NCBI RefSeq assembly: GCF_949769195.1
Contig: NZ_OX458333.1
Span: 930,001-994,000, forward strand
Origin: Methylocaldum szegediense
GTDB lineage: Bacteria > Pseudomonadota > Gammaproteobacteria > Methylococcales > Methylococcaceae
Direction of reading: 5' to 3'
DNA length: 64,000 bases
Position numbers and translations under genes: made by a program. Positions within the stretch are counted from its first letter, which is position 1. Each line of letters starts with the position of its first letter. This document shows, one piece after another, positions 18,039 through 54,794 of this stretch. Below the pieces are notes generated by a model. The model had not been told where the DNA came from. It saw only the letters and a list, made by a program, of their open reading frames with translations, and searched no databases.

Positions 18039-18045
18039 TCGATCC

Positions 18046-30214: not shown

Positions 30215-30348
30215 AGAGGCTCCTTAGAGTGAAAAACGGGTTCGGGACAAGTGGGCGAACGCCCGGGAAGGGATCGGTGATGGACCGAAGAGCGGAGTCG
30301 CTCCCACTTGCCGATTCCGAGCACTAACCGGATACAAAGCGTACATCC

Positions 30349-31500: not shown

Positions 31501-31530
31501 GCCAGTCGCCTTTCGTAGAACGTTTCAAGT

Positions 31531-34500
31531 TCAGCGTCGATCCTGCGCCGTGTCAGCTTGGAAACGCCCCTCACGGGCGAGAAATTCCGCCACGGCGAGA
31601 AAGTCGCGGATAAACCCTTCGGGATCGCCAGGCTTGACGGTATATGCCAACCCGGCCAGACGTCGCCCATATGTTTCCAATACCTCATCGCCGCCGCTCT
31701 GCCGGGCGAACTGATAGGCCAACATGCTGGCCAGCGATTCAGGATTGGCAGGTATGTTTTCCAGCCAGCCGTGGGTCAGGTAGGCGGCTCGACGCGAAAA
31801 ACCTTCCCCCGCGAAGCTGTTGCGTAAACGGATGAGTTGACCCATGGGTGTGGTTTCGACGTCGCTGCCGCTCAGCGTTTCCCAATTCGAGCGGGCGCGG
31901 GGCTCCCTTTCCAGCCAGGGGCAGGTGAGATGGATCGCGCCGCCCGAACGCTTGAGCAGCGAGATCGAGAACGCATCGCGCCCGCCTTCGGACTTGGCGC
32001 GTCTTTCCGCTTCGCGCAGCTGGCGCAACACGTAACCGAGCGGTGCCTGATGATGGGCGATCACGGCGCCCATCGATGCCGTGGCCTTGTGGCCCATGAC
32101 CCGGTACAGGCGGTCGTTGTAGAGCACATGGCCCCGCCTGAGGTCGAATCCAGACGCTCCGAGCCCGAGCAGTTTCCAGGCCTTGTTCGCGCAGTCGGGA
32201 AACACGCCGCTGTACGCGAGCCGCAACAGAAGCATCACCGACAGCAGATCGTCTACCGACACCATGGCCAGAACGTCGTCGCCGCCGGCGTAAATCAGCT
32301 TGCCCTTACCCAGGTCTTCGACGATATGACGAGCCAGGTGCAAGGCGTAGCCGTTCAGCGCGGCGGAAATCGCCATGTGACGGGCGGGAGACACCGGACG
32401 CCGCGCTTTGCGGTAGTCGGCCAAATCGCCGGACGGATGGCGCTGGCCGATCACTTCGCGAATGCGTGGATGCCAGGTGGTTTCGAACGGCAGCAGATAG
32501 GCTTTGCCTTCCTCCCCCTGGCCTGACAGCCATACCCCCATGCGGTCGCCATCCATGAGGATGAATGCGTAATAAGCCTCGGGTTTATGGCCGAAGACGG
32601 TTTCCTTGAGTTCTTTCTCGATGCTGTCGAGCAATTCGCGGGACTGTTCGCGCTCGTTCGGATCGTCGCTGGCGAGATTTTCCTTGCGCCGTTCCATGAA
32701 CAACGGCAAGCCTCGCAACATCAGAAGTTCCTCGTGTCTTGCTTTGTGTAGGCGCAGGGCGAGCTTGCGCGGCAATGCGACCGTGTCTTCCTCGATCAAC
32801 TGCTCCAATTGGCTGGCGAGAGGGATCGGGAGCGGTACCGGATTGTCGAGCCAGCGCTCGAGACTGGTCCCGAGTGCCATGGTATGCGTCGAAACGACAT
32901 ACCGCGTCAGTTTGAGGCCCAAGACATCCCTCATGTCGTCGGCAAACAGGTTCGGCCAGAACCGCTTGAGCGTACACGGTGCGCACAGGTGCTCACCCTT
33001 GCGGGCGAGGCTGGTTCCCTGTACCGCTGCCCAGAGGCTGCCCGATTCCTGCCGCCGGCCAGGCGGCAGATCTAAGAGCTTGCGCTCGTCGCTCAGCCAC
33101 TCCCGTTCCCCGCAAAGGGAGCAGCGGTAACCTTCCTGCGGGGATTGAGCGAACGTGCGTACCGCTTTCGCGGCGGCCTGGGTGCGATCCAGAACATCGT
33201 ACACGGCCGGATACAGCACGCCGGGATTGGGCGCGAAAAAGGTTTGGCCTTCCACTTTCAGTTCCCTGCTCAACAGCTTCCAGGCTTCGCTGCCGAGAAA
33301 ACCCGGTTTGCCGTTTCCATTCGGATGGAATAACCGCATGGCTTCTTCCAATTTTTCCGTCGCCGGCGGCTGTCCGCTCCGTTCCTCGATCAGAGCGCCC
33401 CATTCCACGGCGGCCCAGTGAATCTCCGGGAAGCCTTCAAGTTGTTGCGCGATTTGGGTTTCCGCCGCTTCCGGACGCGCGGGGCGGTCCGCCCTTCGGC
33501 ACAAGAGATCGAGCGCGCGTCTCGCTTGAGTCTTGACGCATTCGCGCACCCTTTGCCGGATGTCATCCGCCAGTTTCTCGACTTGCGCAGCCGGGACCAG
33601 CGCGACGAAACGGTTGGGAAGAGCGGCGGCGAACAGCGGATTGGCATCGGTTTTATGCTTGACCCAGTCGCAGTCCGCGAACCGTTCGGGCGGCAAGCCC
33701 ATGTCGTCCCGCAGCCAGAGATCGACCAAAGGGACGCCGCGGAGTTGCGGGAACAGTACGGCATCCGGTCCGAGACGCTCGCAGACGACCCGGATCGCTT
33801 CCCAGGCGAGCCGCGATAGCAAGTGCGAACCAGCCCACAAGTCCGAGGTGGTCCGCGCTTGGGCGATGAAATCCTGAACCGGACCGAGGCTCACCGTGAA
33901 CAGGGCGGGATTCCGGTTGGGATCGGCGTAAAAAGCCGAGGCATAGGCCGAGGTGAGATCGAGATGCGCCCAGATGGTGTGATCCGGCACGCGGGTGTCG
34001 GCAGGGAGGAGATCCCATAGCTTGGCGAGCTCCGGTGCCGGCGATTCCGGCCCGAAACGCCAGAAGGCGAGCGCCGTTTTTCGGGCGTCGACCGGCTCGC
34101 CGTTTCCCGGTTGGATCAAACTTTTGAAATGGGCGGTGCTAACCTCCTTGATCTGCCCGGGATCGATCTCGGTCAGCTTCGACAAGTCGTACTGTTCGCC
34201 TGAAAGAGGATGAATGAGTACCGCGCTTTCATCGAACCGAATCTGTGCCCAACTGGGATACCGGCCGTCCCGTTCGTCGCGCGGCCATTGAGGACGGTCG
34301 CCCGCGGACGCCCACCGGTCCGCTTTCGCGACGATATCCCTAAGCTCGGCCGGAATGCCGGGGTGCCCGAAGATGGCTTCTTGCAATACCGCGGCAGTAC
34401 CGCCCTCGTGGCCGGCAGGGTCGCGCAGGAGGACCAGGGCTTTCTCGGCTGGATCATGGGTCCAGGCGGCCAGTTTGGCGTGCCAATGCGTAAGTGCCAT
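31531..34500 (-). CDS. cmr2: Cas10/Cmr2, type III-B large subunit and cyclase
   Basis: 989 residues from ATG 34500 (GAAGGAA 9 nt upstream; a start further upstream would run into cmr1). It senses target RNA and makes cyclic oligoadenylate. The N-terminal HD domain has H15-D16 (WTHDPAEKAL), so DNase activity may be kept. A zinc ribbon lies in the middle (CSLC ... CAPC). The Palm cyclase motif GGDD is at 739-742 (LIYAGGDDVLAMV), intact. DGDRMGVWLSG in the first Palm-like domain is also family-typical. Between cmr1 (13 bp) and cmr3 (30 bp). Confidence 0.95.
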   Translation of the reverse strand: MALTHWHAKLAAWTHDPAEKALVLLRDPAGHEGGTAAVLQEAIFGHPGIPAELRDIVAKADRWASAGDRPQWPRDERDGRYPSWAQIRFDESAVLIHPLSGEQYDLSKLTEIDPGQIKEVSTAHFKSLIQPGNGEPVDARKTALAFWRFGPESPAPELAKLWDLLPADTRVPDHTIWAHLDLTSAYASAFYADPNRNPALFTVSLGPVQDFIAQARTTSDLWAGSHLLSRLAWEAIRVVCERLGPDAVLFPQLRGVPLVDLWLRDDMGLPPERFADCDWVKHKTDANPLFAAALPNRFVALVPAAQVEKLADDIRQRVRECVKTQARRALDLLCRRADRPARPEAAETQIAQQLEGFPEIHWAAVEWGALIEERSGQPPATEKLEEAMRLFHPNGNGKPGFLGSEAWKLLSRELKVEGQTFFAPNPGVLYPAVYDVLDRTQAAAKAVRTFAQSPQEGYRCSLCGEREWLSDERKLLDLPPGRRQESGSLWAAVQGTSLARKGEHLCAPCTLKRFWPNLFADDMRDVLGLKLTRYVVSTHTMALGTSLERWLDNPVPLPIPLASQLEQLIEEDTVALPRKLALRLHKARHEELLMLRGLPLFMERRKENLASDDPNEREQSRELLDSIEKELKETVFGHKPEAYYAFILMDGDRMGVWLSGQGEEGKAYLLPFETTWHPRIREVIGQRHPSGDLADYRKARRPVSPARHMAISAALNGYALHLARHIVEDLGKGKLIYAGGDDVLAMVSVDDLLSVMLLLRLAYSGVFPDCANKAWKLLGLGASGFDLRRGHVLYNDRLYRVMGHKATASMGAVIAHHQAPLGYVLRQLREAERRAKSEGGRDAFSISLLKRSGGAIHLTCPWLEREPRARSNWETLSGSDVETTPMGQLIRLRNSFAGEGFSRRAAYLTHGWLENIPANPESLASMLAYQFARQSGGDEVLETYGRRLAGLAYTVKPGDPEGFIRDFLAVAEFLAREGRFQADTAQDRR

Positions 34501-34513
34501 GTATCGCGTTCCT

Positions 34514-35620
34514 TCAGATGCGTTGAAAAACAGAAGCAGATGAGTCGAGCCAAGCGTGAACGCGTGACCATACCTCGGCCTGCTTATCGACATTCGGTTT
34601 GTTCGGGCCGAGTTTTTGCGCGAGTTCGTACGGCAGCGCGCACGGGAGATGAAAGATCATCGAAACGAATTTACCGTTCGCGGTTTTCGCGACTTTGAAA
34701 CGAAGCTGGTTGGCAAGACGTGCCTCTCGGGGAAGCTTTTCCACGTTATGGTTTGTCACTGGATAGGCAAGAAGATGACGATCCTCGAATGGTCCATTTC
34801 TACCGTGAGTAAACTTAAGGTGGGTGCGAAACCCGATTTTCGCCTTTGCCAATGTGGTCATTGCGTCCCGCCAAGTCGGGAATTCTTGCTTCGATTTCCA
34901 GAACAAGACTCCACGCGCATCCTTACCGAGAGCGTGTGGCCAGTCCTGTCTTAAGCATTGGTCGAGCGGAAGAGCTATTTCGGCAATCAGCGGATCGGAT
35001 GCTGCCGGTATCGCCACGCTTTGAATGTCACCGCCAGTTAAAGCGAGTGAACCCCAGCCATTTCGCGATCTGCCCCCGATCGTGCCGAACCAATGAATGA
35101 GTTGCAGCGCCTCAGGCAAGGCCGCAGCAGCTTGAGAGATCGCACGGTCTGTCAACCCAGAAACCAAGGCACCATTCGTGTGAGTCGGAAAAGCGACATG
35201 AAGTCGGGCATGGTGGCCAGCTTGAATAGCGGCATTCGCTTTCAGTACGGTTTTCCCCTGTGCGAATGTAAGCGGGCCATATCCCAGATAGAGTTGTGCA
35301 CCGATATTGCGTCCACCTCGCACCTCTCGGTGAAAAACCTGAGTGTCTTGCTCCCATGACCGCAGAACGCCATGATCCCACCGATCCAACCGCATCCGTA
35401 CCGCGCTCTGCCGCGATTGGTTTTCGCCGGCCGTTCCGAACAGCAAGCCCTCAGCCTCCCGCAACCTTTCGCTGTCGTAGCCGAAGCCGTTAGCCGCCGC
35501 AATCCGCCACCACTGCCGTAATAGCGCCTTAAATGGCGGTGTGCGCCATTGGCTGCTCTGCTCGGCATTACCCAGAAATGCGGGCGTATTGAAGCGCACG
35601 GTCAGTTCCAGTTTTCTCAT
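34514..35620 (-). CDS. cmr1: Type III-B RAMP protein Cmr1
   Basis: 368 residues; AGGGGGATAT precedes the ATG. N-terminal MRKLELTVRFNTPAFLGNAEQSSQWRTPPF is split here into its key parts: a first RRM strand, a FLGNA turn and a W-R-TPPFKALLRQWWR crRNA-binding segment. GTIGGRSRNGWGS near 190 is the RAMP G-loop. Cmr1 caps the 3' end of the complex and captures target RNA. It heads the cmr structural genes; a 297-bp gap with no gene separates it from the CARF-HEPN gene upstream. Confidence 0.92.
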   Translation of the reverse strand: MRKLELTVRFNTPAFLGNAEQSSQWRTPPFKALLRQWWRIAAANGFGYDSERLREAEGLLFGTAGENQSRQSAVRMRLDRWDHGVLRSWEQDTQVFHREVRGGRNIGAQLYLGYGPLTFAQGKTVLKANAAIQAGHHARLHVAFPTHTNGALVSGLTDRAISQAAAALPEALQLIHWFGTIGGRSRNGWGSLALTGGDIQSVAIPAASDPLIAEIALPLDQCLRQDWPHALGKDARGVLFWKSKQEFPTWRDAMTTLAKAKIGFRTHLKFTHGRNGPFEDRHLLAYPVTNHNVEKLPREARLANQLRFKVAKTANGKFVSMIFHLPCALPYELAQKLGPNKPNVDKQAEVWSRVHAWLDSSASVFQRI

Positions 35621-35917: not shown

Positions 35918-37204
35918 TCACGATAAGTCGAACGGGTAAACACTCGGTAGTTGTGGGGGAAGGCAGCGGATGCCGGATTTTCGGCTCTCGGCAAGCAGCA
36001 TGGGCAGGAATCGCTCACTGAGCCAATCGTGAAGCGCTTGCCAGTGCTCCCGACCGATCGGGGTGAAACCGTGGGCCAGTATGGAGTTATTCCGCGCATG
36101 TACATGATGTCGCAGACTCTCCCGTTCTTCCCGGATGAAATGGGCGGCTTCGCTGTCGAGCTTGGTACCCACGAGTTCCCAGGCCGCGAAAAGACCGGCT
36201 TGGAGCTTACCGTCTCGGGTACGGGACAGCTCGAGACCAGGCGGAACGAAATCTTCCGGAACCGCACTCGTGTCGACGCCGAAATCGCGCCGCAGTAGCC
36301 ACTGCGCCGTCCACTCCAATAGCCGGTAAATTCGGGCGACCGCGTCGTCATAACGGCCCTGTGCGGCACGCCGCTCCGCGTTTCGATAGAGATCGAGCAA
36401 CCGAGCGGGCTCGTTCTTGACATCGCCTTCCTTGCCGCATAAACGCAGCAGCACGCCGATATGGGACTTGAGTTCGTCCGGTAGTGCCGCCGCGTAAAGC
36501 TGCAATTTGGCCAGAGCCTCGCCATGCTCGAAGCGGTCCCAGGCGGCGTAGGCTTGGCTCAAGACGCGCGCACGATCCAGCCGAGCGGCCAACGATCCCC
36601 TGGGGCGCGGCAAGCTGGCCAGGCCAAGCGCTGCCTCGTCGTAAGCGTAGCGCGTCCAAGCCGCGAGATACGGACTCATGCGGCGCGTCAGCTTCAGCTC
36701 GTCCGCACTGGCTTCCCCTACCGACTGCCAGCCATCGTGCACTTTGATCAGATCGGCGCGGTTGCCAGTGACCAGTTGCAGTTCAACACCGTCGACTTCC
36801 AGAGCGGCGGCCACCAACCCGGCGCTCATGGTCTTCGTCCCACCGGTATAGTCGGCTATCACCCGCGCTTCTGCATCGCTGGTGCGAAGCTCCCGTAGAG
36901 CCTCGTAACAAACGCGAAACACGGCATCCAAATCGTCCGCCGGGCACAGCCTCACCTCGTAGCGGTCCGCATCCAGTCCAGTCTGAGTGGGGATATTCGG
37001 CAAGCTGGGGCGTTCGTCGTTGAAGTTCGCCTTTATACAGAAATCTTTTCCGGTGATCTGGATCTCGGACCCCGGCCGCCCGGTGCCCGGGTCTCTACCG
37101 GTACAGATGAAGCAGACGAAATCCGGTTTCAAAATTTCGATAGCGGAAACAATCGGTTGATGGGATCCACCTACAGTGCAGACGAGCAGAATCGGTTGTG
37201 GCAT
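35918..37204 (-). CDS. CARF-HEPN ribonuclease of the TIGR02710/Csm6-like group
   Basis: 428 residues. N-terminal CARF (1-165) has LLVCTVGGSHQPIVSAI and IADYTGGTKTMSAGL (GGTKT at 121-125), the ligand-binding loops. The C-terminal helical domain contains R371-NNSILA-H378 preceded by RHHVHA, the Rx(4-6)H catalytic signature of HEPN RNases. Once cyclic oligoadenylate binds, such proteins cut RNA without sequence specificity. It is the first gene of the cmr operon, so the III-B complex carries its own ancillary RNase. The exact family name (Csm6, Csx1 or TIGR02710) is less sure than the architecture. Confidence 0.88.
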   Translation of the reverse strand: MPQPILLVCTVGGSHQPIVSAIEILKPDFVCFICTGRDPGTGRPGSEIQITGKDFCIKANFNDERPSLPNIPTQTGLDADRYEVRLCPADDLDAVFRVCYEALRELRTSDAEARVIADYTGGTKTMSAGLVAAALEVDGVELQLVTGNRADLIKVHDGWQSVGEASADELKLTRRMSPYLAAWTRYAYDEAALGLASLPRPRGSLAARLDRARVLSQAYAAWDRFEHGEALAKLQLYAAALPDELKSHIGVLLRLCGKEGDVKNEPARLLDLYRNAERRAAQGRYDDAVARIYRLLEWTAQWLLRRDFGVDTSAVPEDFVPPGLELSRTRDGKLQAGLFAAWELVGTKLDSEAAHFIREERESLRHHVHARNNSILAHGFTPIGREHWQALHDWLSERFLPMLLAESRKSGIRCLPPQLPSVYPFDLS

Positions 37205-37417: not shown

Positions 37418-40218
37418 GGATATCCCTTCTTTATTAGAGGTAGCGATTCAAACTCAGCAGATGGCTGTAAACATGGACTCATCGTAAATCTTAATCCCTT
37501 CTTAATCAGGTCTCGTTTCAAACGCAACAAGCCCACCAAAATGGGCATTACCGGGGAGTCTTAATCCCTTCTTAATCAGGTCTCGTTTCAAACACATGAC
37601 TGACAAAAACATGACGGCTGTTAATGGTCTTAATCCCTTCTTAATCAGGTCTCGTTTCAAACTGGCCTTCTTTCATCAATAAGAAGATAAACGAGTCTTA
37701 ATCCCTTCTTAATCAGGTCTCGTTTCAAACCAATCTTCGGCAGCAAATCAGCCGGACGTAGCTGGGTCTTAATCCCTTCTTAATCAGGTCTCGTTTCAAA
37801 CACGGAGGACAAGGGACTGGCTAAGAAGTTTCATGGTCTTAATCCCTTCTTAATCAGGTCTCGTTTCAAACGCACATTCAACCGATCAACAATCAATAGG
37901 AGATAAGGTCTTAATCCCTTCTTAATCAGGTCTCGTTTCAAACTACTTAAACCCGTAAACGTAATCAAGAGGAGTAAAGTCTTAATCCCTTCTTAATCAG
38001 GTCTCGTTTCAAACGTCATGTCGTAGAGATTTACCGTTCTGGTAAGTAGTCTTAATCCCTTCTTAATCAGGTCTCGTTTCAAACGGTTGCAACGCTTCAT
38101 GTGCAGATAAAGCCGTGAGGTCTTAATCCCTTCTTAATCAGGTCTCGTTTCAAACAAACTAGCCGCCGTAAAGGAGGAAATGCAGGTCTGTCTTAATCCC
38201 TTCTTAATCAGGTCTCGTTTCAAACCGGGCGACAACGGCGAGCCGGTCATCACCATCATGTCTTAATCCCTTCTTAATCAGGTCTCGTTTCAAACCCAGG
38301 CGGTCGCTGCAAAAGCTCGGGACCGTCGAGTGTCTTAATCCCTTCTTAATCAGGTCTCGTTTCAAACGATAAGAGGAGATATGTTTATGAAATTCGCATT
38401 CAGTCTTAATCCCTTCTTAATCAGGTCTCGTTTCAAACTCAACGAACTCTTCACCATGGACGAGGAAAACGGGGTCTTAATCCCTTCTTAATCAGGTCTC
38501 GTTTCAAACGACACGTCTGGGCGGTATTTCATCTCGATTCTTGTGGTCTTAATCCCTTCTTAATCAGGTCTCGTTTCAAACCGGAGCCTGGATTTTATTT
38601 GGTTCAATTATTCGAGTCTTAATCCCTTCTTAATCAGGTCTCGTTTCAAACCAATTATTGAGAGACATAGTACATTTTACATTAAGGTCTTAATCCCTTC
38701 TTAATCAGGTCTCGTTTCAAACGGAGGTCAGGATGAAGAGAGAACAATTCGAAGCGGTGTCTTAATCCCTTCTTAATCAGGTCTCGTTTCAAACTTCCTG
38801 ACGACTAATGCTGAGCTCGTTGCTGCGTCTTAATCCCTTCTTAATCAGGTCTCGTTTCAAACTCAGCTGAACGAAGAAGCCGCTCAGGCCATCGAGGTCT
38901 TAATCCCTTCTTAATCAGGTCTCGTTTCAAACATACCATGTATCGGGCATTCATCGACGGCCTCAAGTCTTAATCCCTTCTTAATCAGGTCTCGTTTCAA
39001 ACCGAGCGCCCGACGAAGGCCGTCTGGCACATCGGTCTTAATCCCTTCTTAATCAGGTCTCGTTTCAAACCGCGGCCTGGCATCAGGCGCGGGCCGTCGC
39101 CAGGGTCTTAATCCCTTCTTAATCAGGTCTCGTTTCAAACGAAAGCCCGGTGGCAATGGAAGTTGAGAATATCTCGTCTTAATCCCTTCTTAATCAGGTC
39201 TCGTTTCAAACCGTTACGGCCTGACGAACTTGCGCGCTCACATAAGTCTTAATCCCTTCTTAATCAGGTCTCGTTTCAAACGCCACCAACGTCGAGGCGA
39301 TTCGTAGGCTTGCGGGTCTTAATCCCTTCTTAATCAGGTCTCGTTTCAAACGGGATTCCATGAGCATGATCAATCTGACTCCCCAGTCTTAATCCCTTCT
39401 TAATCAGGTCTCGTTTCAAACAGCATAGAGCGCATTAAAGTGTGGCGACAAGCAAGTCTTAATCCCTTCTTAATCAGGTCTCGTTTCAAACAGGCGAAAC
39501 AAGAGGAGACATAACGATGATTCAAGTCTTAATCCCTTCTTAATCAGGTCTCGTTTCAAACGGGTCGCTTACGCTCTATGTGCCGATGCCGGATGGGTCT
39601 TAATCCCTTCTTAATCAGGTCTCGTTTCAAACAGTTAGCGGCTGCGCAGGTAGAGAGAGCCGAGTTAGTCTTAATCCCTTCTTAATCAGGTCTCGTTTCA
39701 AACGCGTTCGAGGCGGGGCAAGTGACGGTTAGTCTTGGTCTTAATCCCTTCTTAATCAGGTCTCGTTTCAAACTGAACAGATTTTATGATACTGATATGG
39801 GCCTGCGCGTCTTAATCCCTTCTTAATCAGGTCTCGTTTCAAACTGAACAGATTTTATGATACTGATATGGGCCTGCGCGTCTTAATCCCTTCTTAATCA
39901 GGTCTCGTTTCAAACACAGGCGCGGAATACTACGCCTTGACTCACGGCGAGTCTTAATCCCTTCTTAATCAGGTCTCGTTTCAAACGGAATGAATGAGCA
40001 GATTTTATGAGACGGATTTGGTCTTAATCCCTTCTTAATCAGGTCTCGTTTCAAACAACGACAGCTTTCCAATTGTTGAGGTCCGGGGATTGTCTTAATC
40101 CCTTCTTAATCAGGTCTCGTTTCAAACCGTGCAAACACAAGGACCTTTTTATGGCCCTTGACGTCTTAATCCCTTCTTAATCAGGTCTCGTTTCAAACGA
40201 AATATGAGCAAATTTTAT

Positions 40219-41263
40219 CCTGATTAGTGATGAATTTCAGCTAAGCGAAGTTGCCACTCGGGGCGAGGTGGAGTGAATACGGCAGCGTGCGCTAGCCGGC
40301 GAAGCAGCGTTTTGAGATCGAAACGCCGATTGAAACGGTATTGGAACTCGGTCAGATACCGCTTGGCGTATTTCTCGAATTTGAACGCGTGATAGGTACC
40401 GGAAATCGCGGTCTTCAGGTTACTCAACAACGTGTTAACCCAACGAAACTCAGGATGTTGTGCCGACTGCCGCCCAGAGCCCAGAATCAGGCATTCGTGG
40501 CGAGCGACGACGTGCTGCAAGCTCCGAAACCCGCTCAAACCATCGGTGAGTGCATAAGTCGACGGAGCTAAGGCGCGTTGAGCCCACTCCGCAATCGCCT
40601 GCTGGGTGAACGGCAGGGGATCGATACGCACAAATAACGGACGTCCGTCATCCGTGGTTTGCACCGCCATCACGAAGGCGACTTTGTTTTCCGACCCTCG
40701 TCCCCGTTTCCCCGAGCGCTCACCGCCCAGGTAAGCATCATCGATCTCGACCCGCCCGCTCAACTGCCGATCCGCCTCCCGCTCCGCCATCACCTGAATC
40801 AACTTGTGCTTTATCAGCCAGGCGGTGCGATAACACACGCCGAGATGACGCATCAACTCCAAGGCTGAGACATTGTTCTTGGCCTGGGTTAGGAGATACA
40901 TCGCCAGAAACCAGGTGGTGAGCGGCAGCTTGGTCGCTTCGAAGAGCGTCCCGGCGGTTAACGTCGTTTGCTTTCGGCAGTGTCCGCATTGCCAGTAGGT
41001 TCGCTCATTTCGTTTGAATACCGTATGCCGTGCCTCGCCACAGGCTGGGCAACGGAAACCGTCCGGCCAACGCAGAGCTTGTAAGGCCGCTTCGCACTGT
41101 GCTTCGGTGCCGTATTGGGTCAGAAACTCGGCCAACGACAATCCCTTTTGAAATTGCACTTGGTTCATTGACATGGGACACCTCTCTTGTGATCGATGTC
41201 CATAGTCTAAAGCCTCTACTCGCTCACCACGTGAGCCTGTGCTGAACTTTCTCGCTAATCAGG
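40219..41263 (-). mobile_element. IS1595-family (ISXO2-like) insertion sequence
   Basis: 1045 bp. The imperfect inverted ends start CCTGATTAG and finish GTTCAGC or TTTCAGC inward (about 23 bp). An 8-bp target duplication AATTTTAT is at 40211-40218 and 41264-41271, the length usual for this family. It carries a single transposase gene and is inserted in an array 2 spacer. Both ends and the duplication are intact, so the insertion is recent. Confidence 0.93.
40224..41174 (-). CDS. IS1595-family transposase
   Basis: 316 residues; AGAGGTG lies 5 nt before ATG 41174. N-terminal zinc ribbon (FRCPACGE ... YWQCGHCRKQ), helix-turn-helix region (LMRHLGVCYRTAWLIKHKL), then the ISXO2-like DDE-type nuclease: VEIDDAYLGGERSGKRG (first Asp), ALTDGLSGF (second Asp) and the HPEFRWVNTLLSNLKTAISGTYH segment typical of the family. 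No frameshift is visible, so it is probably active. Mediates cut-and-paste or copy-type transposition of its own element. Confidence 0.94.
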   Translation of the reverse strand: MSMNQVQFQKGLSLAEFLTQYGTEAQCEAALQALRWPDGFRCPACGEARHTVFKRNERTYWQCGHCRKQTTLTAGTLFEATKLPLTTWFLAMYLLTQAKNNVSALELMRHLGVCYRTAWLIKHKLIQVMAEREADRQLSGRVEIDDAYLGGERSGKRGRGSENKVAFVMAVQTTDDGRPLFVRIDPLPFTQQAIAEWAQRALAPSTYALTDGLSGFRSLQHVVARHECLILGSGRQSAQHPEFRWVNTLLSNLKTAISGTYHAFKFEKYAKRYLTEFQYRFNRRFDLKTLLRRLAHAAVFTPPRPEWQLRLAEIHH

Positions 41264-44200
41264 AATTTTATTACACCGATATGTCTTAATCCCTTCTTAA
41301 TCAGGTCTCGTTTCAAACGAATAGGCTCTACGCTAGAGCCTGTGCCCACAAGGGGTCTTAATCCCTTCTTAATCAGGTCTCGTTTCAAACACTATGAGAG
41401 CGATTAATATTTCAGACCTAGAGTCTTAATCCCTTCTTAATCAGGTCTCGTTTCAAACGCGGGGGTGGTGTGGGGTACGACTTCTCCGCCATGTCTTAAT
41501 CCCTTCTTAATCAGGTCTCGTTTCAAACGAAGTTGTCGGCACGTGTCCCATCACCGGTGCACGTCTTAATCCCTTCTTAATCAGGTCTCGTTTCAAACGT
41601 ATGGCGCACGTGAACAGCATATCGGGTCTCCGTCTTAATCCCTTCTTAATCAGGTCTCGTTTCAAACTTTCTCGGTCAACGTCAGCGACATTGACGAAGT
41701 CGGTCTTAATCCCTTCTTAATCAGGTCTCGTTTCAAACTGGAGAATAGAGATGAAATTACAGCAAGCAATTTGTCTTAATCCCTTCTTAATCAGGTCTCG
41801 TTTCAAACATAGCGCGAACCGCTTGTATGCTAGAGCCTGTGTCTTAATCCCTTCTTAATCAGGTCTCGTTTCAAACGCGGCTTCCACGACAACGGCGACT
41901 ACGGGAAAAGTCTTAATCCCTTCTTAATCAGGTCTCGTTTCAAACTCAAAGTGCAGCAAATATATCGATCACCACGCCGTCTTAATCCCTTCTTAATCAG
42001 GTCTCGTTTCAAACGCGGCTTCCACGACAACGGCGACTACGGGAAAAGTCTTAATCCCTTCTTAATCAGGTCTCGTTTCAAACCCTACTGCTATTCGCAA
42101 TGAGGCCGGCCAAATCGGTCTTAATCCCTTCTTAATCAGGTCTCGTTTCAAACATTGTCGCTATGGCAAAGCTCGGTGGACTGTGCGTCTTAATCCCTTC
42201 TTAATCAGGTCTCGTTTCAAACATCAAATGAAGATTACATTGACAACGGCGAACGGTCTTAATCCCTTCTTAATCAGGTCTCGTTTCAAACGATTCGGAC
42301 GGCAGCAAAAGCGTTCGCTACGAGCAGTCTTAATCCCTTCTTAATCAGGTCTCGTTTCAAACCAAATTTGTTAGGCAAGACAATTACGCCGACATCGGTC
42401 TTAATCCCTTCTTAATCAGGTCTCGTTTCAAACCGGCCGAAATCGTTGAGGTTGAAGGCGGATGGATGTCTTAATCCCTTCTTAATCAGGTCTCGTTTCA
42501 AACTAATGAGCGAGAACACTGTGTCCACCAAGGACAGTCTTAATCCCTTCTTAATCAGGTCTCGTTTCAAACAGGCGCATGATCCTGTCTACATTGTGAC
42601 AGTGGGTCTTAATCCCTTCTTAATCAGGTCTCGTTTCAAACGGGTGCAGATCGCGGCAAACGGGAATATACTAGTTCGTCTTAATCCCTTCTTAATCAGG
42701 TCTCGTTTCAAACGCCTGAGAACGGCGTATTGTGGGCAGAACTCAGTCTTAATCCCTTCTTAATCAGGTCTCGTTTCAAACGAAGGCCGATGGCAAATGA
42801 GGAGCGCCCGCGCTGGTCTTAATCCCTTCTTAATCAGGTCTCGTTTCAAACATGCGAGGACGGCGCAAATGCTCATCAATTTCCTGTCTTAATCCCTTCT
42901 TAATCAGGTCTCGTTTCAAACAGATTTAGGCTTGAGCGGGATGACCGCTCAAGAACTGTCTTAATCCCTTCTTAATCAGGTCTCGTTTCAAACGAATATT
43001 TACGCACAAATAGCACAAACGTTGACGGTCTTAATCCCTTCTTAATCAGGTCTCGTTTCAAACTCCTCGTGCCGCAGGATTCCCGCACGCGCGCAAGTCT
43101 TAATCCCTTCTTAATCAGGTCTCGTTTCAAACATGGGAAAATTTTACGACACAGATCTTGGCTTGAGGTCTTAATCCCTTCTTAATCAGGTCTCGTTTCA
43201 AACCGAAAACGGAACACGTAACCAATCAAGGAACCGTCTTAATCCCTTCTTAATCAGGTCTCGTTTCAAACAGGTGAAACCATGAAAACCGGTCTTAATC
43301 CCTTCGTCTTAATCCCTTCTTAATCAGGTCTCGTTTCAAACCCGTTACCCGACTCCAAAACGAAAACTGACGAGGTGTCTTAATCCCTTCTTAATCAGGT
43401 CTCGTTTCAAACAAGAGTCGACCGAGTCTTCGTTCCTCGGAACGAGGTCTTAATCCCTTCTTAATCAGGTCTCGTTTCAAACAGAGCTGTTACTGCAATA
43501 TGCAGTAACAGATAAGTCTTAATCCCTTCTTAATCAGGTCTCGTTTCAAACGGATGGGCCAGAGCACAATTAACCAAAGGGGAAAAGTCTTAATCCCTTC
43601 TTAATCAGGTCTCGTTTCAAACCTCGCTAGCGTTCTGTCCTGCAAAGCCCAGACCTGTCTTAATCCCTTCTTAATCAGGTCTCGTTTCAAACAGGACTTG
43701 CGTCGGGGGTTCGCGGAATGCTTCCGGTCTTAATCCCTTCTTAATCAGGTCTCGTTTCAAACACCATGATCGAACAATTAAAACAGCAATTTCCGTCTTA
43801 ATCCCTTCTTAATCAGGTCTCGTTTCAAACAATTTCCTCTGGTTAACTTTTTTAAAGTTGACCAGTCTTAATCCCTTCTTAATCAGGTCTCGTTTCAAAC
43901 GAGGCTAGGAGGTAAGCCATGCAATGTGATCACGTCTTAATCCCTTCTTAATCAGGTCTCGTTTCAAACGCCAATACGGAGACAGTACTAGATACAAAGG
44001 GCAGTGTCTTAATCCCTTCTTAATCAGGTCTCGTTTCAAACAACCTAGCATGCAAAATCGCGCTAGAGGATTACCGGTCTTAATCCCTTCTTAATCAGGT
44101 CTCGTTTCAAACACTATGTCAACTTATAACTATGCCAACCTATAAAGGTCTTAATCCCTTCTTAATCAGGTCTCGTTTCAAACGCTGGCTTCGAAAAGGG

Positions 44201-46724
44201 TCAGTACGAGATCGTCGGTCTTAATCCCTTCTTAATCAGGTCTCGTTTCAAACACAAGATACCTAGCGGGGTATCTGTAGATACTAACGGTCTTAATCCC
44301 TTCTTAATCAGGTCTCGTTTCAAACTTAGACGCTTTTGAAGAGTGACATGGCTTACGGTCTTAATCCCTTCTTAATCAGGTCTCGTTTCAAACTTGCCTG
44401 CGATTCATGCCTACAATGGCATGAAACGCGTCTTAATCCCTTCTTAATCAGGTCTCGTTTCAAACAGCATGGAGGCAAGCAAATCAGCAAGCTGGCGGGG
44501 TCTTAATCCCTTCTTAATCAGGTCTCGTTTCAAACGATCAAAGAGAAACGAGTTAAGGGATCACTCAAGTCTTAATCCCTTCTTAATCAGGTCTCGTTTC
44601 AAACGGAGGCAAGCAAATCAGCAAGCTGGCGGGAAAGCGTCTTAATCCCTTCTTAATCAGGTCTCGTTTCAAACCGCCAATGGAAACGAAGACGGCGCGG
44701 CGTTCTTGGAGTCTTAATCCCTTCTTAATCAGGTCTCGTTTCAAACATCTATCGAAGGTGATGTATGAAGCTATTGGAGAGTCTTAATCCCTTCTTAATC
44801 AGGTCTCGTTTCAAACGTATATTCCTTCAGGATGTTGTTACCGTTAACGATGTCTTAATCCCTTCTTAATCAGGTCTCGTTTCAAACGAGCACGGCATTG
44901 AGCTAGTGCACATTGGTGACCGTCTTAATCCCTTCTTAATCAGGTCTCGTTTCAAACGAAAATGAACGTATTTGATACACACCAGGCTGAAAGTCTTAAT
45001 CCCTTCTTAATCAGGTCTCGTTTCAAACGAAACGAAGACGGCGCGGCGTTCTTGGAGCAAAAAGTCTTAATCCCTTCTTAATCAGGTCTCGTTTCAAACG
45101 ACGACCGCGATGGACATGAACAAGCTGCATCCGTCTTAATCCCTTCTTAATCAGGTCTCGTTTCAAACCAACGCAACGTTTTTAACTGGAGAACAGAATG
45201 ATGTCTTAATCCCTTCTTAATCAGGTCTCGTTTCAAACAAATGAACGAAAACAAGCAGTATGAACTAGTAAAGGTCTTAATCCCTTCTTAATCAGGTCTC
45301 GTTTCAAACCAAACGCCCCCATAGAAGCGCGCGCGGGGCGCATCGTCTTAATCCCTTCTTAATCAGGTCTCGTTTCAAACAAAAAGCGCTTGGCTAGTTT
45401 GCGGTCCTAGTCAAGTCTTAATCCCTTCTTAATCAGGTCTCGTTTCAAACGCGATGCATACCAGAAAATCGCTCCTTTCGGCGGGTCCTAGTCAAGTCTT
45501 AATCCCTTCTTAATCAGGTCTCGTTTCAAACTAAAACACGGGCCAATACCTCCTAATTTCTGAGTCTTAATCCCTTCTTAATCAGGTCTCGTTTCAAACC
45601 AATACAGAACTTGAAGATGATAAGAGACGAAAAGTCTTAATCCCTTCTTAATCAGGTCTCGTTTCAAACCTGCCACCGTCGCGGATGCGCCCGAGTATCG
45701 ACGTCTTAATCCCTTCTTAATCAGGTCTCGTTTCAAACTGCTGAAGGAAAAAGGCTTTGTCTTCGGCACTGAAGTCTTAATCCCTTCTTAATCAGGTCTC
45801 GTTTCAAACGGGTAGGTTTTACGAAACCGATTTAGGACTGCGGTCTTAATCCCTTCTTAATCAGGTCTCGTTTCAAACTCGATACAAGTTCGAGCTTCTG
45901 CCCGTCCTCGCGTCTTAATCCCTTCTTAATCAGGTCTCGTTTCAAACACTAGTCCCCATCGGTGACCGGGACGCTTTCTCGGGTCTTAATCCCTTCTTAA
46001 TCAGGTCTCGTTTCAAACAATTGGAAAGTCATAGAGGAGATACTCGGGGGAAAGTCTTAATCCCTTCTTAATCAGGTCTCGTTTCAAACTAAGGCCCGCG
46101 AAGAACTCCGCGACATCGCGGAGGTCTTAATCCCTTCTTAATCAGGTCTCGTTTCAAACCGGCTTTGGTCGAAGAATCCGGCAGTTTATTTGCGTCTTAA
46201 TCCCTTCTTAATCAGGTCTCGTTTCAAACTCGTCGAATTCATCGAGGATATCACCGATGCGGATTGTCTTAATCCCTTCTTAATCAGGTCTCGTTTCAAA
46301 CAGCCTTTACGTCCAAATAGCACAAACTTTAGAAGGTCTTAATCCCTTCTTAATCAGGTCTCGTTTCAAACCACAACGCAAGCAAGAAGGAGGAAAAATG
46401 CTTAAAGTCTTAATCCCTTCTTAATCAGGTCTCGTTTCAAACATCAAAGCAGGTAAGCTCGATCCAGAACGGACCTGTCTTAATCCCTTCTTAATCAGGT
46501 CTCGTTTCAAACGGCACCTTTGCATATGAATACATTGCAGTGCCGAAGGTCTTAATCCCTTCTTAATCAGGTCTCGTTTCAAACTTTCCCCCATGCCGAT
46601 TTATGGCCATCACGGGAGTCTTAATCCCTTCTTAATCAGGTCTCGTTTCAAACTTAAGGAAAACAAGCAACTTCGTGATCAGGTTGCGGTCTTAATCCCT
46701 TCTTAATCAGGTCTCGTTTCAAAC

Positions 46725-46828
46725 GGCTCGTGTCTAAAACACCTCCATATTCAAAGGGTTACAAAGGGGGTTGCAGAAAAATCGACTTGCCGAAAAGTTA
46801 GCATCGAGCGAAGGCGATTTTCGGGGCA
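46725..46828 (-). promoter_or_regulatory. Leader of array 2
   Basis: Same conserved blocks as the leaders of arrays 1 and 3 (CTAAAACACCTCCATA, GGTTACAAAGGGGG, TTGCAGAAAAAT, CCGAAAAGTTAGCATC). It ends at the uma2 stop codon. Confidence 0.85.
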
Positions 46829-47311
46829 TCATACGGGTAATTCAATGTGGATCGGAAAGTTGGGCGCAAGGGAGCTGCGTTCGAGCCTGGCATGGTTGTT
46901 GTAGAACAGCATCTTGCCGTCGTCCTGGCACACCCAGAATTCGCGTGCGCCGCGAGCGAAATAAAGCTCCTTCTTTTCTTCCATTTCGGCTAAGCCGTTT
47001 GAGGGTGAAAGTACTTCGATCACGATCTCTGGGGCTTCCGGGTATGGATGGGTCAGACCATGCCGTTCAAAGAACTCGGGGCTTGCCCAAACTACGTCGG
47101 CTACTTTCACGCCGTCGGAGGTCTGTATGCTGCACTCAGGCAACACCCGCCCATTAGGCAGATGTTGCCTGAGTAGGCCCAAAATCTCGCCTTGTAGCCA
47201 GGAGCGCTTGTTCGTGGCGGGACTCATGACGATATGCCCCCAGCGGTCGGTTTCGAATTTGAAAGGAAGGTCCTTGAACAACGGATTGTCGCAGATGTCT
47301 TGCCAGTTCAT
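46829..47311 (-). CDS. Uma2-family (DUF820) putative endonuclease
   Basis: 160 residues from ATG 47311, with GGAGG 7 nt upstream; a longer frame would overlap the csm5 stop. PD-(D/E)XK fold shown by VADVVWASPEFF (Asp) and PEIVIEVLSPSNGLAEMEEKKELYFARGAREFWV, i.e. E-V-LSPS with downstream Glu/Lys, the DUF820 core. Cellular role of the family is unclear; it is widespread in cyanobacteria and methanotrophs. It sits between csm5 and the array 2 leader, and a mutated copy holds the identical position next to the array 3 leader. That suggests it travels with the leader-array unit. Confidence 0.85.
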   Translation of the reverse strand: MNWQDICDNPLFKDLPFKFETDRWGHIVMSPATNKRSWLQGEILGLLRQHLPNGRVLPECSIQTSDGVKVADVVWASPEFFERHGLTHPYPEAPEIVIEVLSPSNGLAEMEEKKELYFARGAREFWVCQDDGKMLFYNNHARLERSSLAPNFPIHIELPV

Positions 47312-47364: not shown

Positions 47365-49101
47365 TCAGTGGAGGTCCACCCAGTTTGAGCTATTCTCCAA
47401 TTGTTCCAGCCACCCCCTCAGTTCGGCTTTGCGTTCCTTCTTATTGGGCCAGTCGGTCCATTCCTTGACGGTTTGGCGAAGCAGCGTCGCCAAGGCACGG
47501 CGGGCGTCGCTGTCTTGCCATTGCAAGGCGCAGGTAACGATAGCCCGGCGTTTTTCGTCGAATAGACCACCGGGTTGGTAGCGTCCTTTTGCTTTTTGTT
47601 CCAGGTAGAACGTCCGAAATGCTTCCACGGCTTGCATGTCTGCCGACATGGCGGCCAATCGCGCCTGCCGCTCCGCTTTTTCTTGAGCGAGACGAGCCTC
47701 TTCCTCCGCCTTGCGGCGTTCTTTTTCCTCTTCCTCCTGCCGCTTCGCCTCGGCTTCGGCGCGCGCTTTCGCCATGGCTTCCGCCTGCTCCCTGCGTTTC
47801 GCGGCGAACTCGCGGGCCGTATTCAAATGGGTTTCGCAAAGCTCTCGCAGTTCGGGCCATTCATGTTCCGGCGCATCCAGCGGCTGGACTTCCACCAGCA
47901 GCCAGCCGAAGGGCAGCAGGCCGGATCGCTGATCCTTTGTATCGGCGGCGAGCCAGAACGTTTTCGGAGTTTCGGCATAGCTGAACTGCTGTTTACCGGT
48001 TATAGGATCTTTGCCTTCCATGATCCTTATGTTTCTCGTCCCACTGACAGTGACAGATTCAGCTCCGGAGTGGCGGCCCACGCGAAGAAGGAAGGCCTCG
48101 CCGCGCCGAAGCTTGTCTTTGGCCACTTCGAATACGCGCAGTACACCCTGCGCCCAATGTGTGGACAGATAGCCTCGCTCGTTCAACTGCTTTATTTCCG
48201 CAGTAAGGATGTCTTGGTAAAAGGCGTTGCAACTGCCGGCTATCGTTTGCATGGAGTAGCGCAGGTTCCGATTGGGTAGGTTTTGTAAATCGCCGAGGCT
48301 GTTTACGTCTCGAAGGTTTATTTGCGCGGTGAAAGCCCGGTAATACCAAGCAGGAACACATTCGAGTATCTGATAAAGCTGTTTCTTCTCCGCCATCGAT
48401 TCCCGGAGCTGGCCTTTTTCGTCGACAACTGCGGCTCTTTTGCGATTGACGGCTAGATGTATCTGAGCGGCGGGTAAATCGGGTTCCTGTTTCCAATGAG
48501 CGTCGGATATCTGGAATAGGCGCATCGGATCGCGTTCCAAGTAAAGCTTTCCGTTCTCAGCGTCGTAATAACGAAACAGCCTCCCCTGGAATGGATGTAA
48601 GCCTTTTTTCTCCGCAGCGGGTTGTTCGTTATTTTCTCGATTCAACAACGCTGTTCGAATCGCGCCTTTCAGCGATGATCCGAACAGAATCGGCTTGCGG
48701 GTAATGGGGTTGTATCCGGTACGGTCGATTTCCAGCCGGTTCAGTACCTGTTTGCCGTTGGCCTCTCGGTTGGCAGTCTGCCCGACCCGCGCCGCGTACA
48801 ATTGCGCTACTCCGGGCAGTACGGGGATGGCATTCACCGCCCAAGCTTTCAGAATGTTCCTGCGTTGGTAGAAGAAACTCTGAAGACTCTTGATCATGTC
48901 TTCGTTGGGCTTGCGATTGGCTATCGTGAGCAATTCCTTCCGATCCTCGGCGGAAAACGCAGCCATCGCGGCGCCGGTATCGAATTCATGAAGAACGCCG
49001 TCGTCGATCACATAATTGGTGGGTTCGTAGCTTTCCCCGGTGCCGATGTGGACGGGCGACAAAGGTGTGATGTGCAATCTATAACTGGCGAAGGTGCTCA
49101 T
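47365..49101 (-). CDS. csm5: Type III-A RAMP protein Csm5 with C-terminal coiled-coil extension
   Basis: 578 residues from ATG 49101 (ATGA overlap with csm4). The N-terminal RAMP region is Csm5-like: YRLHITPLSPVHIGTGESYEPTNYVIDDG, then FGSSLKGAIRTALL near 180. Csm5 normally has about 350-400 residues. Here residues 429-490 form a long highly charged helix rich in Glu, Lys, Arg and Ala, and 490-578 form a further small helical domain (RRALATLLRQTVKEWTDW). Csm5 binds the crRNA 3' end and recruits trimming nucleases, so the tail could be a docking arm. The frame is open throughout and codon use is uniform, so the tail looks real. Confidence 0.9.
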   Translation of the reverse strand: MSTFASYRLHITPLSPVHIGTGESYEPTNYVIDDGVLHEFDTGAAMAAFSAEDRKELLTIANRKPNEDMIKSLQSFFYQRRNILKAWAVNAIPVLPGVAQLYAARVGQTANREANGKQVLNRLEIDRTGYNPITRKPILFGSSLKGAIRTALLNRENNEQPAAEKKGLHPFQGRLFRYYDAENGKLYLERDPMRLFQISDAHWKQEPDLPAAQIHLAVNRKRAAVVDEKGQLRESMAEKKQLYQILECVPAWYYRAFTAQINLRDVNSLGDLQNLPNRNLRYSMQTIAGSCNAFYQDILTAEIKQLNERGYLSTHWAQGVLRVFEVAKDKLRRGEAFLLRVGRHSGAESVTVSGTRNIRIMEGKDPITGKQQFSYAETPKTFWLAADTKDQRSGLLPFGWLLVEVQPLDAPEHEWPELRELCETHLNTAREFAAKRREQAEAMAKARAEAEAKRQEEEEKERRKAEEEARLAQEKAERQARLAAMSADMQAVEAFRTFYLEQKAKGRYQPGGLFDEKRRAIVTCALQWQDSDARRALATLLRQTVKEWTDWPNKKERKAELRGWLEQLENSSNWVDLH

Positions 49102-50072
49102 CTTGCATTCCTTTCCGGTAGCCGAATACCTACGGCGGGTGCGTAGCCTTGATGTACGGTACCCTGTAGGGAGCGGATCTTGGTCAACTGGCCGTTGCCT
49201 CCTAGCCCCTGGCCGACGAACGGGGCCGGATGAAATCGTTTCGGCGTCAGTACCGCTCCGGTTTGCGCCAACAACACGGGCGTTTTGAACGGATTTCCAA
49301 GGTGTACGCCGATGTCGCCATGACGGCCGAAGCGGGTGAAGGTTTGATAGAAGCTTCGTTCCGCGTCGAGTTCCAAGCCTTGGGGTGCGCTGGGGGCGAG
49401 CGTCAACCACGCGTTGGCATCCGCCTGGTCGGGTAGGGCATCCGGCTCGATTCCGGCTAGCTCGAACTTGCCGAGACCGATGGTTGCGTCACGGCCGAAT
49501 CCGAATTCACCCATGTCCTGGAACAAGCGCTTCAGCTCTTCCCGTGACAATCGGGTTTCGTCGAGCACGACATAGATGTCTAGGTTTGGCTGAACATTGC
49601 TTTCAGATTTTTTTGTGCCGTACCAGAGCTGACTCATGGAATAGGGAGCGAACTGTCCGGTTCCGGTGGTGCCCGTGGCTCGGTTGATACTGTTGTGAGG
49701 TTGCGGCCGGCTGTGAGGTTCGGCCCCGGGAATGTCCGCAGCGGTCTTGCAGACGTTCAGCCAGTTTTCGACCGGCGTGGACAGATCTTCTTTGGGTAGC
49801 CAAACCCGTTTCTTTACTTGTTTGCGATCGGCGCTTTCGACTGCCGCAAACCAGTGGTTCGGCAATGTGGGGCGAGGTAAGTGGCCGCCCGGAAAGGCAT
49901 CCGAAACGACGGCGTAGGGGCGGCCTTCAGTATAGCCCTGAAGGCATTCGACCAGTCGGTCTTCGCCATGGCGATTGCGCAAGGCCCAGCACAACTGGCC
50001 GAAAAGGGTGTCGCCCATAGGCCGCGTACCAAACGCGGTCCGGGGCGTGATCGTCAAGCGGATGAGGTTCAT
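49098..50072 (-). CDS. csm4: Type III-A RAMP protein Csm4
   Basis: 324 residues from ATG 50072 (MNLIRLTITPRTAFGTRPMGDTLFGQLCWALRNR cut into its recognisable parts: a first RRM strand, then GDTLFGQLCWA, a Csm4 signature). FGFGRDATIGLGKFEL near 205-220 is the RAMP glycine loop. Csm4 pairs with Csm1 and anchors the crRNA 5' handle, like Cmr3 in the other system. It overlaps csm5 by 4 bp and follows csm3 by 71 bp. Confidence 0.92.
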   Translation of the reverse strand: MNLIRLTITPRTAFGTRPMGDTLFGQLCWALRNRHGEDRLVECLQGYTEGRPYAVVSDAFPGGHLPRPTLPNHWFAAVESADRKQVKKRVWLPKEDLSTPVENWLNVCKTAADIPGAEPHSRPQPHNSINRATGTTGTGQFAPYSMSQLWYGTKKSESNVQPNLDIYVVLDETRLSREELKRLFQDMGEFGFGRDATIGLGKFELAGIEPDALPDQADANAWLTLAPSAPQGLELDAERSFYQTFTRFGRHGDIGVHLGNPFKTPVLLAQTGAVLTPKRFHPAPFVGQGLGGNGQLTKIRSLQGTVHQGYAPAVGIRLPERNAR

Positions 50073-50143
50073 GCGGATGTTCCGTTTCTCCAATCGATGA
50101 TGACAGCGCGTGAAGAGAGGCGAATGTCGCCGGCGGGTACGCG

Positions 50144-50866
50144 TCATGCGACCTGACTGAATTTGATCTCGCTGAGCTTTTTCAGGACGTCCTGGTCTTC
50201 CAATTCCAGCCGCGTGAACTTGATCTTGCCGTAGCCCCTCGAGCCGGAACCGCCGAGTCCGGTGAGTTCGAGCAACTTGAGCCCGCGCCACACGGTCGGC
50301 AGCAGATCCTCGTCGTCATGGACGCGGATTGTCAGATTGAAATCGAAGCGCGCCTGTGCGGGGACCCGTTCGGTATTGCGAGGATGTTCCGCCACGCCGC
50401 GGATGCGGTCGATCATGTTTTCCATTTTGGTTTCGGTCAGGAGCAGGTTGCTGCTGCCCATTTCCTCAACCCAAGTTCTGTCTAGAGCACAGTCCCAGAA
50501 CGATAACCGGGTCGGACCGATTTCACGCACCAGGTCGTCGTTGTGGTTAGCGCCTTCAGGTGCGCCGCCGAACAGGCGAAGTATGTTTTTGGCTTGAACC
50601 TGCTGGGCTCCGGATAGTTGGGCAATATGTCTAAAGCTCAGTGGCTCGCCATTCGTGATTCCTACAACCCCAAGTTCCCATTCCAAAAGGCTACGGATTT
50701 TCCCTTTGATGCTGGAGCCGGGGATATAGGGCTCGAGCGTGAGAGGATGCTTCAACACCGGGTTATCGGTGCCGCCGATGCGCATTTCGTTATTCCCGGA
50801 ACCGATATGGAGGCCGGAAATGAGTTCAAGGGTGCCAGTGAGTTTTTGGATAGCGGTGAGTTTCAT
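50144..50866 (-). CDS. csm3: Type III-A backbone RAMP nuclease Csm3
   Basis: 240 residues from ATG 50866 (MKLTAIQKLTGTLE). The catalytic Asp lies in MRIGGTDNPV (residue about 33, the position used for target RNA cutting every 6 nt). YIPGSSIKGKIRSLLEWE is the crRNA-contacting helix and TGLGGSGSRGYGKIKF the C-terminal G-loop. Full family length. The gene is separated from csm2 by an inserted GIY-YIG cassette, so co-transcription of the two halves of the csm operon may depend on read-through or on a new promoter. Confidence 0.94.
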   Translation of the reverse strand: MKLTAIQKLTGTLELISGLHIGSGNNEMRIGGTDNPVLKHPLTLEPYIPGSSIKGKIRSLLEWELGVVGITNGEPLSFRHIAQLSGAQQVQAKNILRLFGGAPEGANHNDDLVREIGPTRLSFWDCALDRTWVEEMGSSNLLLTETKMENMIDRIRGVAEHPRNTERVPAQARFDFNLTIRVHDDEDLLPTVWRGLKLLELTGLGGSGSRGYGKIKFTRLELEDQDVLKKLSEIKFSQVA

Positions 50867-50939
50867 AGTCGGTATTTCTCGAATTATTAAGTAAGCAGTT
50901 GGATAAACACGCAAAACCGATTTGATGTCCGTATTGCCG

Positions 50940-51060
50940 CAGCTCGCGTCATTCCGGCAGGGATGCCGGAATCCAGGCCATGGACGGTAACCGAGAAGTA
51001 GCCACAGACCGTTCCTTCCTGTGTCCTTGATGCCGGCATTCCCTGCCGGCATGACGGTCG
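50940..51060. repeat. CATTCCGGC inverted repeats on one side of the GIY-YIG gene
   Basis: CATTCCGGCAGGGATGCCGG, then AATCCAG at 50951-50976, and a second inverted unit TGCCGGCATTCCCTGCCGGC at 51031-51050. Matching units lie at 51463-51493 on the other side of the gene. This repeat family commonly accompanies GIY-YIG genes in proteobacteria. Confidence 0.75.
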
Positions 51061-51094
51061 ATACCCGGCCGAATTAAGCGTAGGTAGTTGTCTG

Positions 51095-51394
51095 TCAGGA
51101 ACCGCCAGTTAAATCTGTCCATAAATCGCGCCATTCCGGATTACTCGCTTCAATCAATCCGATCTTCGCTGCCCGAGGCCATTTCTTGATCCGCTTTTCC
51201 CGGAGAATGGCGCTTTCCATTCGTTCGTGCAGCTCGAACCATACCAACATGTGAACCCCGTATTTCTTGGTAAAGCCTTCCACAAGGCCGTTTCGATGTT
51301 GGAAAACTCGTCCGACAAGGTTCGAAGTTACGCCAACATACAGGGTTCCGTTGCGACGGCTCGCGAGCATGTAAACGCAAGGTTGTTTGTCCAT
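51095..51394 (-). CDS. GIY-YIG nuclease family protein (UPF0213-like), inserted in the csm operon
   Basis: 99 residues from ATG 51394. VYMLASRRNGTLYVGVTSNLVGRVFQHRNG carries the GIY-YIG equivalents, with the catalytic Arg region in NLVGRVFQH; the Glu lies in FELHERMESA. The short stand-alone form is found across proteobacteria, often flanked by CATTCCGGC palindromes, as here on both sides (50951-51050 and 51463-51493). The cassette therefore looks like a small mobile unit that landed between csm2 and csm3. It has no known CRISPR role. Confidence 0.88.
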   Translation of the reverse strand: MDKQPCVYMLASRRNGTLYVGVTSNLVGRVFQHRNGLVEGFTKKYGVHMLVWFELHERMESAILREKRIKKWPRAAKIGLIEASNPEWRDLWTDLTGGS

Positions 51395-51462
51395 ATCAAG
51401 GCCATTTGTTCCGAGAAATCGCGTATTCGACGTCGATGCCGTATCGGGCCTGCCATCCTGGA

Positions 51463-51493
51463 CGCTGGATTCCGGCATCCTTGCCGGAATGAC
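51463..51493. repeat. CATTCCGGC inverted repeat, other side of the GIY-YIG gene
   Basis: GGATTCCGGCATCCTTGCCGG and then AATGACG, the inverse of the units at 50951-51050, which brackets the cassette. Confidence 0.75.
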
Positions 51494-51513
51494 GTTCAAA
51501 TCGGTTTCAGAAC

Positions 51514-51993: not shown

Positions 51994-52003
51994 AGTTACC
52001 TCC

Positions 52004-54778: not shown

Positions 54779-54794
54779 CCGGGTCTCCTCTGAA

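Follow-up and report, generated by a model that had tools for sequence, protein, structure and literature searches.

The CRISPR arrays of Methylocaldum szegediense hold at least six separate captures of the opening codons of a single uncharacterised phage gene, represented by six distinct spacers that start within 10 nt of each other. We consider it probable (about three chances in four) that these spacers are independent memories of that gene's first codons, taken from several lineages of one phage family, and that they constitute DNA-derived type III memory which has been filtered by selection. The stretch analysed, here called the window, comprises 64,000 nucleotides (positions 930,001 to 994,000 of contig NZ_OX458333.1), and its relevant features are collected in Table 1. 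The genome contains two AMO/pMMO family matches, so that the host is likely a methanotroph, which agrees with the guess made in the sequence-only reading.

Table 1. Positions in the window of the CRISPR arrays, associated genes and spacers of the FYxTDLGL family (spacer starts relative to the ATG of the phage gene; ranks counted from the A2 leader)
Feature	Position	Strand	Remark
Two Cas2 (16019-16336, 18046-18396), one Cas1 (17097-18056), divergent Cas1-like ORF (16333-17379)	16019-18396	-	
CARF-adenosine deaminase effector	19153-21303	-	
CRISPR array A1	22650-27673	-	72 repeats, 71 spacers; strand judged from leader at right end
A1 spacer QELDAIAMERG	23251-23285	+	starts +48; score 46 against L001, null top 42
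Type III-B genes	27778-35620	-	Cas10/Cmr2 31531-34593, Cmr3 30349-31500, RAMP proteins
Csx1/Csm6-type CARF-HEPN protein	35918-37204	-	
CRISPR array A2	37558-46724	-	116 perfect repeats, 115 spacers (one IS-split, one of 45 nt)
Spacer (M)NRFYDTDMGLR	39774-39808	+	starts +2; rank 84/115
Identical second copy of spacer 39774	39845-39879	+	
Spacer MSRFYETDL	39987-40020	+	starts -7; rank 81/115
Spacer MSKFYYTDM, left part, IS-cut	40199-40218	+	starts -5; last 8 bases AATTTTAT = target duplication
IS1595-type insertion sequence, 1045 bp	40219-41263	-	transposase ORF 40224-41174; PF12762 E 6.6e-33, PF12760 E 4.3e-15
Spacer MSKFYYTDM, right part	41272-41282	+	
Spacer DLGLSGMTAQEL (DLGLSGMTAQE)	42922-42957	+	starts +21; rank 54/115
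Spacer MGKFYDTDLGL	43133-43167	+	starts +1; rank 51/115
Spacer (M)GRFYETDLGL	45810-45842	+	starts +3; rank 13/115
A2 leader	46725-46860	-	conserved right of A1, A2, A3; outer end approximate
Type III-A genes: Csm5, Csm4, Csm3, Csm2, Cas10/Csm1	47365-54811	-	Cas10a 52004-54811
CARF protein (54795-55913) and Cas6 (55992-56954)	54795-56954	-	
CRISPR array A3	57476-61932	-	64 repeats, 63 spacers

Repeated capture of a phage gene start

Five distinct A2 spacers (one occurs twice, without any difference) encode the peptide start M-x-x-F-Y-x-T-D-L/M and begin at -7, -5, +1, +2 and +3 relative to the ATG (the A being counted as +1, with no zero; the alignment script itself counts a position 0). All positions given in the sequence-only reading were correct, and its description of one peptide start encoded by differing DNA holds for these five spacers, which are in a single frame. 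With the spacer at 42922, located deeper in the gene, six A2 spacers, one in two identical copies, share one frame of one gene. Two members are absent from the sequence-only reading: the A1 spacer at 23251-23285 (QELDAIAMERG), also from deeper in the gene, and an eighth member outside the window, L151:2301 on contig C2 of the same genome, which reads MGSYYETDLGLR and starts exactly at the ATG (+1). Counted from the leader, the A2 members hold ranks 13, 51, 54, 78, 81, 83 and 84 of 115 (83 and 84 being the identical pair); this spread, together with the members in A1 and L151, indicates that sampling recurred over the whole history of the array.

When 296 distinct spacers, those of the window arrays and of two other arrays of the genome, were clustered by peptide without supervision, the FYxTDLGL family came out as the largest, with 6 members. 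Under a null of 296 spacers and one 40-kb phage, which is generous because the spacers clearly derive from several phages, six starts within 10 nt did not occur in 40,000 simulations and five were reached in 0.035% of them. Over codons 4-12, pairwise differences between spacers amount to 23/88, 0/88 and 39/82 at codon positions 1, 2 and 3, respectively, the associated p value being only indicative because spacer pairs are not independent. Such avoidance of position 2 and concentration at position 3 is the pattern of protein-coding genes that diverge in phages, and not that of spacers drifting within an array.

When 2.9 million viral contigs were scanned with a degenerate DNA pattern for M-x-x-F-Y-x-T-D-x-G-L, in which the third residue was limited to some codons, a single sequence matched exactly. 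The match is at the end of IMGVR_UViG_3300010221_000005 (IMG/VR; hereafter L001), where the ATG lies 87 bases before the contig end and only 29 codons of the gene are known. The gene start reads MASFYDTDLGLSGMSTQELDTIALERGGE and overlaps all eight family spacers; those at 42922 and 23251 match its continuation with a score of 46 each (null top 42), and one contig consequently joins the start, middle and downstream spacers. The sequence-only reading had placed the spacer peptide at the start of a viral protein, and such a start was found in this one contig; its further claim, that one site was sampled repeatedly in diverging phages, is supported by the independent contig, the codon-position pattern and the simulation. 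The essential role that it assigns to the gene would be a supposition.

Among five pattern scans (2.9 million viral contigs), L001 was the only match with an agreeing downstream protein. Three of these scans returned, besides L001, 2, 11 and 7 loci (L041 being common to the latter two), none of which continues like the gene, and a scan of genome contigs gave 14 loci with continuations unlike it. No match was obtained by tblastn of 28-29 aa of the gene against phages and plasmids, nor in PHROGs for the 29-aa L001 start; a 27-aa composite hit only phrog_3281 (E 0.049, in the model interior), which was not accepted. The long pattern was present in 0 of 38 genomes of the host's own family and order. 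A spacer-tolerant pattern matched 8 of 201 genomes, the matches in the own genome being the spacers described here and those in the other seven not being gene starts of the family. None of 112 spacers from four related genomes belongs to the family, and five phage sequences scanned for the gene start (NP1 and AN14 up to base 50,000) gave no convincing match. The terminase of L001 is 29% identical to that of Vibrio phages and is encoded on the strand opposite to the FYxTDLGL gene, whose direction on this contig is away from the virion genes. The idea that a strong promoter precedes the gene on L001 was given up, as a consensus scan found none.

Type III loci and orientation of the spacers

The window encodes two Cas10 proteins with RAMP proteins, and three CARF proteins (CARF-HEPN, CARF-ADA and CARF), as expected of type III systems. 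The Cas1-like ORF at 16333-17379, which adjoins its own Cas2, aligns with the Cas1 model over positions 1-122 only. No RVT_1 (PF00078) match was found in the genome, while 3 of 14 control genomes have one, and the RNA route of RT-Cas1 is for this reason not supported. The conserved right flanks of A1-A3 and the minus-strand location of the cas genes indicate that the arrays are read from right to left; since a consensus sigma-70 promoter was not found in the A2 leader, it is on these two features that the direction rests. With this direction, which the sequence-only reading had left unmentioned, plus-strand sense spacers yield crRNAs antisense to the phage mRNA.

The IS1595-type element that splits one spacer has the ends CCTGATTAG/CTAATCAGG and sits between two copies of AATTTTAT, an 8-bp target duplication. 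The 45-nt spacer at 45451-45495 shares its last 12 bases with its neighbour at 45381-45414, a sign of array recombination. Two further spacers, 43272-43305 and L150:3249 (reverse strand), which belong to two arrays and differ at their left ends, terminate with the 14 bases that open the repeat (GTCTTAATCCCTTC); perhaps they were captured from the spacer-repeat junction of an array, or from a phage sequence mimicking the repeat.

A codon mixture model trained on lambda, T7 and P22 assigned a sense fraction of 0.876 (0.81-0.93) to the 244 distinct window spacers, with a log-likelihood gain of 35 over a 50:50 mixture. Applied to all-sense phage DNA, the same model returned 0.90 for lambda, 0.93 for P22, 0.97 for T7 and 0.82-0.93 for four other phages, and the window spacers are in this respect like pure sense phage DNA. 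The fraction was 0.99 (0.89-0.99) for 53 spacers outside the window and 0.78 (0.65-0.89) for 112 spacers of relatives.

Searching the arrays against 50,697 phage records, followed by mapping, tied 12 window spacers and four of the L150 array to named phages, namely Bhz54-like queuosine phages (with VPv64 and Baskent_P4_1), Nipunavirus NP1 and Yuavirus AN14. Fifteen of these 16 spacers are sense to an annotated gene (p = 0.0005), the sole antisense one being A2_42573, in the primase of phage AN14; A2_42573 and A2_41459 were mapped by peptide similarity only. The orientation count leaves out A2_38296, A3_58769 and A1_23532 (peptide scores 44-49, null top 43), which were judged to be in non-gene frames, the corresponding antisense rows other than A2_42573, and A2_43693 and A3_57722 (sense matches to viral loci with no annotated record). 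Judging from the right-hand leader, the sense fraction and the mapped spacers, the crRNAs would be antisense to their target mRNA. As is typical for type III, a shared motif (PAM) was not seen by eye in 14 protospacer flanks, and the flanks are not complementary to the crRNA tag, with one deviation: the anti-tag GTCTTAAT is matched at no more than 3 of 8 positions by 13 of the 14 flanks and at 6 of 8 by that of L150_2473, for which weak immunity would be predicted.

Spacers 26408, 42642, 46090, 38795 and L150:2473 touch on DNA modification: the groups to which the named phages belong carry DNA-modification genes, for queuosine/deazaguanine (Bhz54, NP1) or thymine pyrophosphorylases (AN14), and spacers strike queE and the queuine transferase gene. 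Modification of the phage DNA would make no difference to a system that targets RNA. Spacers 43693 and 57722, from two arrays, cover the same conserved stretch EDLRRGFAECF with an offset of one base, in a widespread viral protein (found at 65 viral loci) that resembles a methyltransferase.

Selection, acquisition and competing explanations

In the mechanism proposed here, Cas1-Cas2 would capture pieces of phage DNA, in keeping with the negative search of the genome for a reverse transcriptase domain. The arrays would be transcribed from the right-hand leader, as the conserved flanks suggest, into crRNAs (expected mature tag ATTAAGAC) that are antisense, as III-A and III-B complexes need. A cell would survive if its newly gained spacer is directed against a transcript that appears early enough to rescue it, which is established for Thermus, and this selection would remove other-strand spacers. 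As the phage drifts, mostly synonymously, older spacers would lose their match, and selection would again favour a fresh capture at this site, which is conserved and transcribed; early expression of the FYxTDLGL gene is a guess. In Thermus thermophilus, type III spacers are taken from both strands and the bias in position and strand arises by survivor selection (Artamonova et al. 2020, PMC7515739). The two cases are alike in that neither shows a reverse transcriptase, that the spacers which survive are directed against phage transcripts, and that a hot spot, in Thermus in the early region, is ascribed to selection. They differ in that the hot region described there spans ~6.6 kb and comes from one experiment, whereas here a 10-nt site was re-sampled across diverged phages during the arrays' life. 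Selection of this kind would cover both the strand bias and the recurrence, but by itself predicts a hot region and does not explain a 10-nt hot spot, such precision at a start codon being unusual.

This precision could instead reflect acquisition, with Cas1-Cas2 preferring this piece of DNA on account of sequence, structure or the presence of free ends, while selection contributes no more than the strand bias. Six distinct spacers do start within 10 nt (p 0.004-0.014 if the eight members were uniform over the known stretch), and perfect hairpins are enriched: arms of at least 8 occur in 9 of the 244 spacers, where shuffled sequences give 0.3 (at most 2) and five phage genomes predict 0 to 1.2, the corresponding counts being 0/52 in the other arrays of the genome and 2/112 in relatives. 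Hairpin-rich spacers are found in A1-A3 (e.g. 26617, 58491, 26762, 43483 and 60382). However, the 12 most structured spacers listed include no start-codon spacer, the 14 mapped protospacers lack a visible shared flanking motif, and the biases in Thermus, as reported in PMC7515739, came from selection, so that we regard a preference of the acquisition machinery as unlikely. A single acquisition followed by array duplication and mutation would leave identical duplicates such as 39774/39845, but is very improbable, being contradicted by the avoidance of second codon positions and by the differing spacer boundaries, and as many as about ten of 33 bases distinguish one variant from another (43133 versus 45810, counted by eye). 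Chance resemblance of short peptides from unrelated genes is hardly credible, for although 11-aa matches can be weak (39774 and 45810 score 38-39 versus a null top of 42), the family was recovered by unsupervised clustering and L001 holds start, middle and downstream spacers in one frame.

Other re-sampled gene starts and the place of the finding

The sequence-only reading had assigned the arms-race record to one gene; the re-sampling of the FYxTDLGL start stands, but the restriction to one gene is too narrow, as the second-largest family from the unsupervised clustering, INLTPH (5 spacers), and IEQLKKQFPLV (3 spacers) are also located at gene starts. The MKLxEAI and LKKQFPLV genes were also scanned for, and neither yielded a convincing homologue. 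The spacers MKFAF, MRFAFISRHTP, GIELVHIGD and IGDRDAF (38368, 26973, 44888, 45948 and L150:1913) read as one small protein, although clustering grouped only the last pair and the rest were grouped by eye. Since the two largest families both lie at gene starts, type III memory might be focused on translation-initiation sites, spacers from the start regions of a few small phage genes being preferentially kept or captured, perhaps because the mRNA is accessible there or because pairing also blocks translation; we hold this extension to be doubtful. A Shine-Dalgarno sequence followed by ATG (SD-ATG) occurs in 31 of 244 spacers on the plus strand and in 7 on the other. The former share, 12.7%, compares with 6.3% (lambda), 7.4% (P22) and 9.5% (T7) in random sense windows, giving p values of 0.006 against 7.7% and 0.10 against T7; given the latter value, the global test is equivocal and a general start-codon enrichment was rejected as an established result. 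A narrow full-text search for papers that combine type III CRISPR, spacer acquisition, protospacers, start codon and ribosome binding site returned none.

The sequence-only reading was correct in its observation and for the most part in its interpretation. The finding belongs to established type III biology apart from one oddity, the exact recurrence at a start codon. Coding-strand bias is general in type III, and PAMs are rare where type III loci own cas1-cas2 (Vink et al. 2021, PMC8482600); the preference seen here is like that of this survey, and repeated capture of one gene start is not described in the sections of it drawn on here. In the RT-Cas1 type III-B system of Marinomonas mediterranea, interference needs antisense crRNAs and RNA can serve RT-Cas1 as a source of spacers (Silas et al. 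2017, PMC5576922); the antisense requirement is alike, whereas an RT domain was not detected in M. szegediense. What the arrays preserve is a prolonged arms race at a single site, with phage DNA that has changed and a protein that has largely kept its sequence. Together the spacers make up an ordered allele series of a phage gene start otherwise known from 29 codons only. With it one can ask what degree of phage divergence defeats type III immunity and what leads to renewed capture of these ten bases, and the spacers can serve as bait for the phage family attacking this likely methanotroph.
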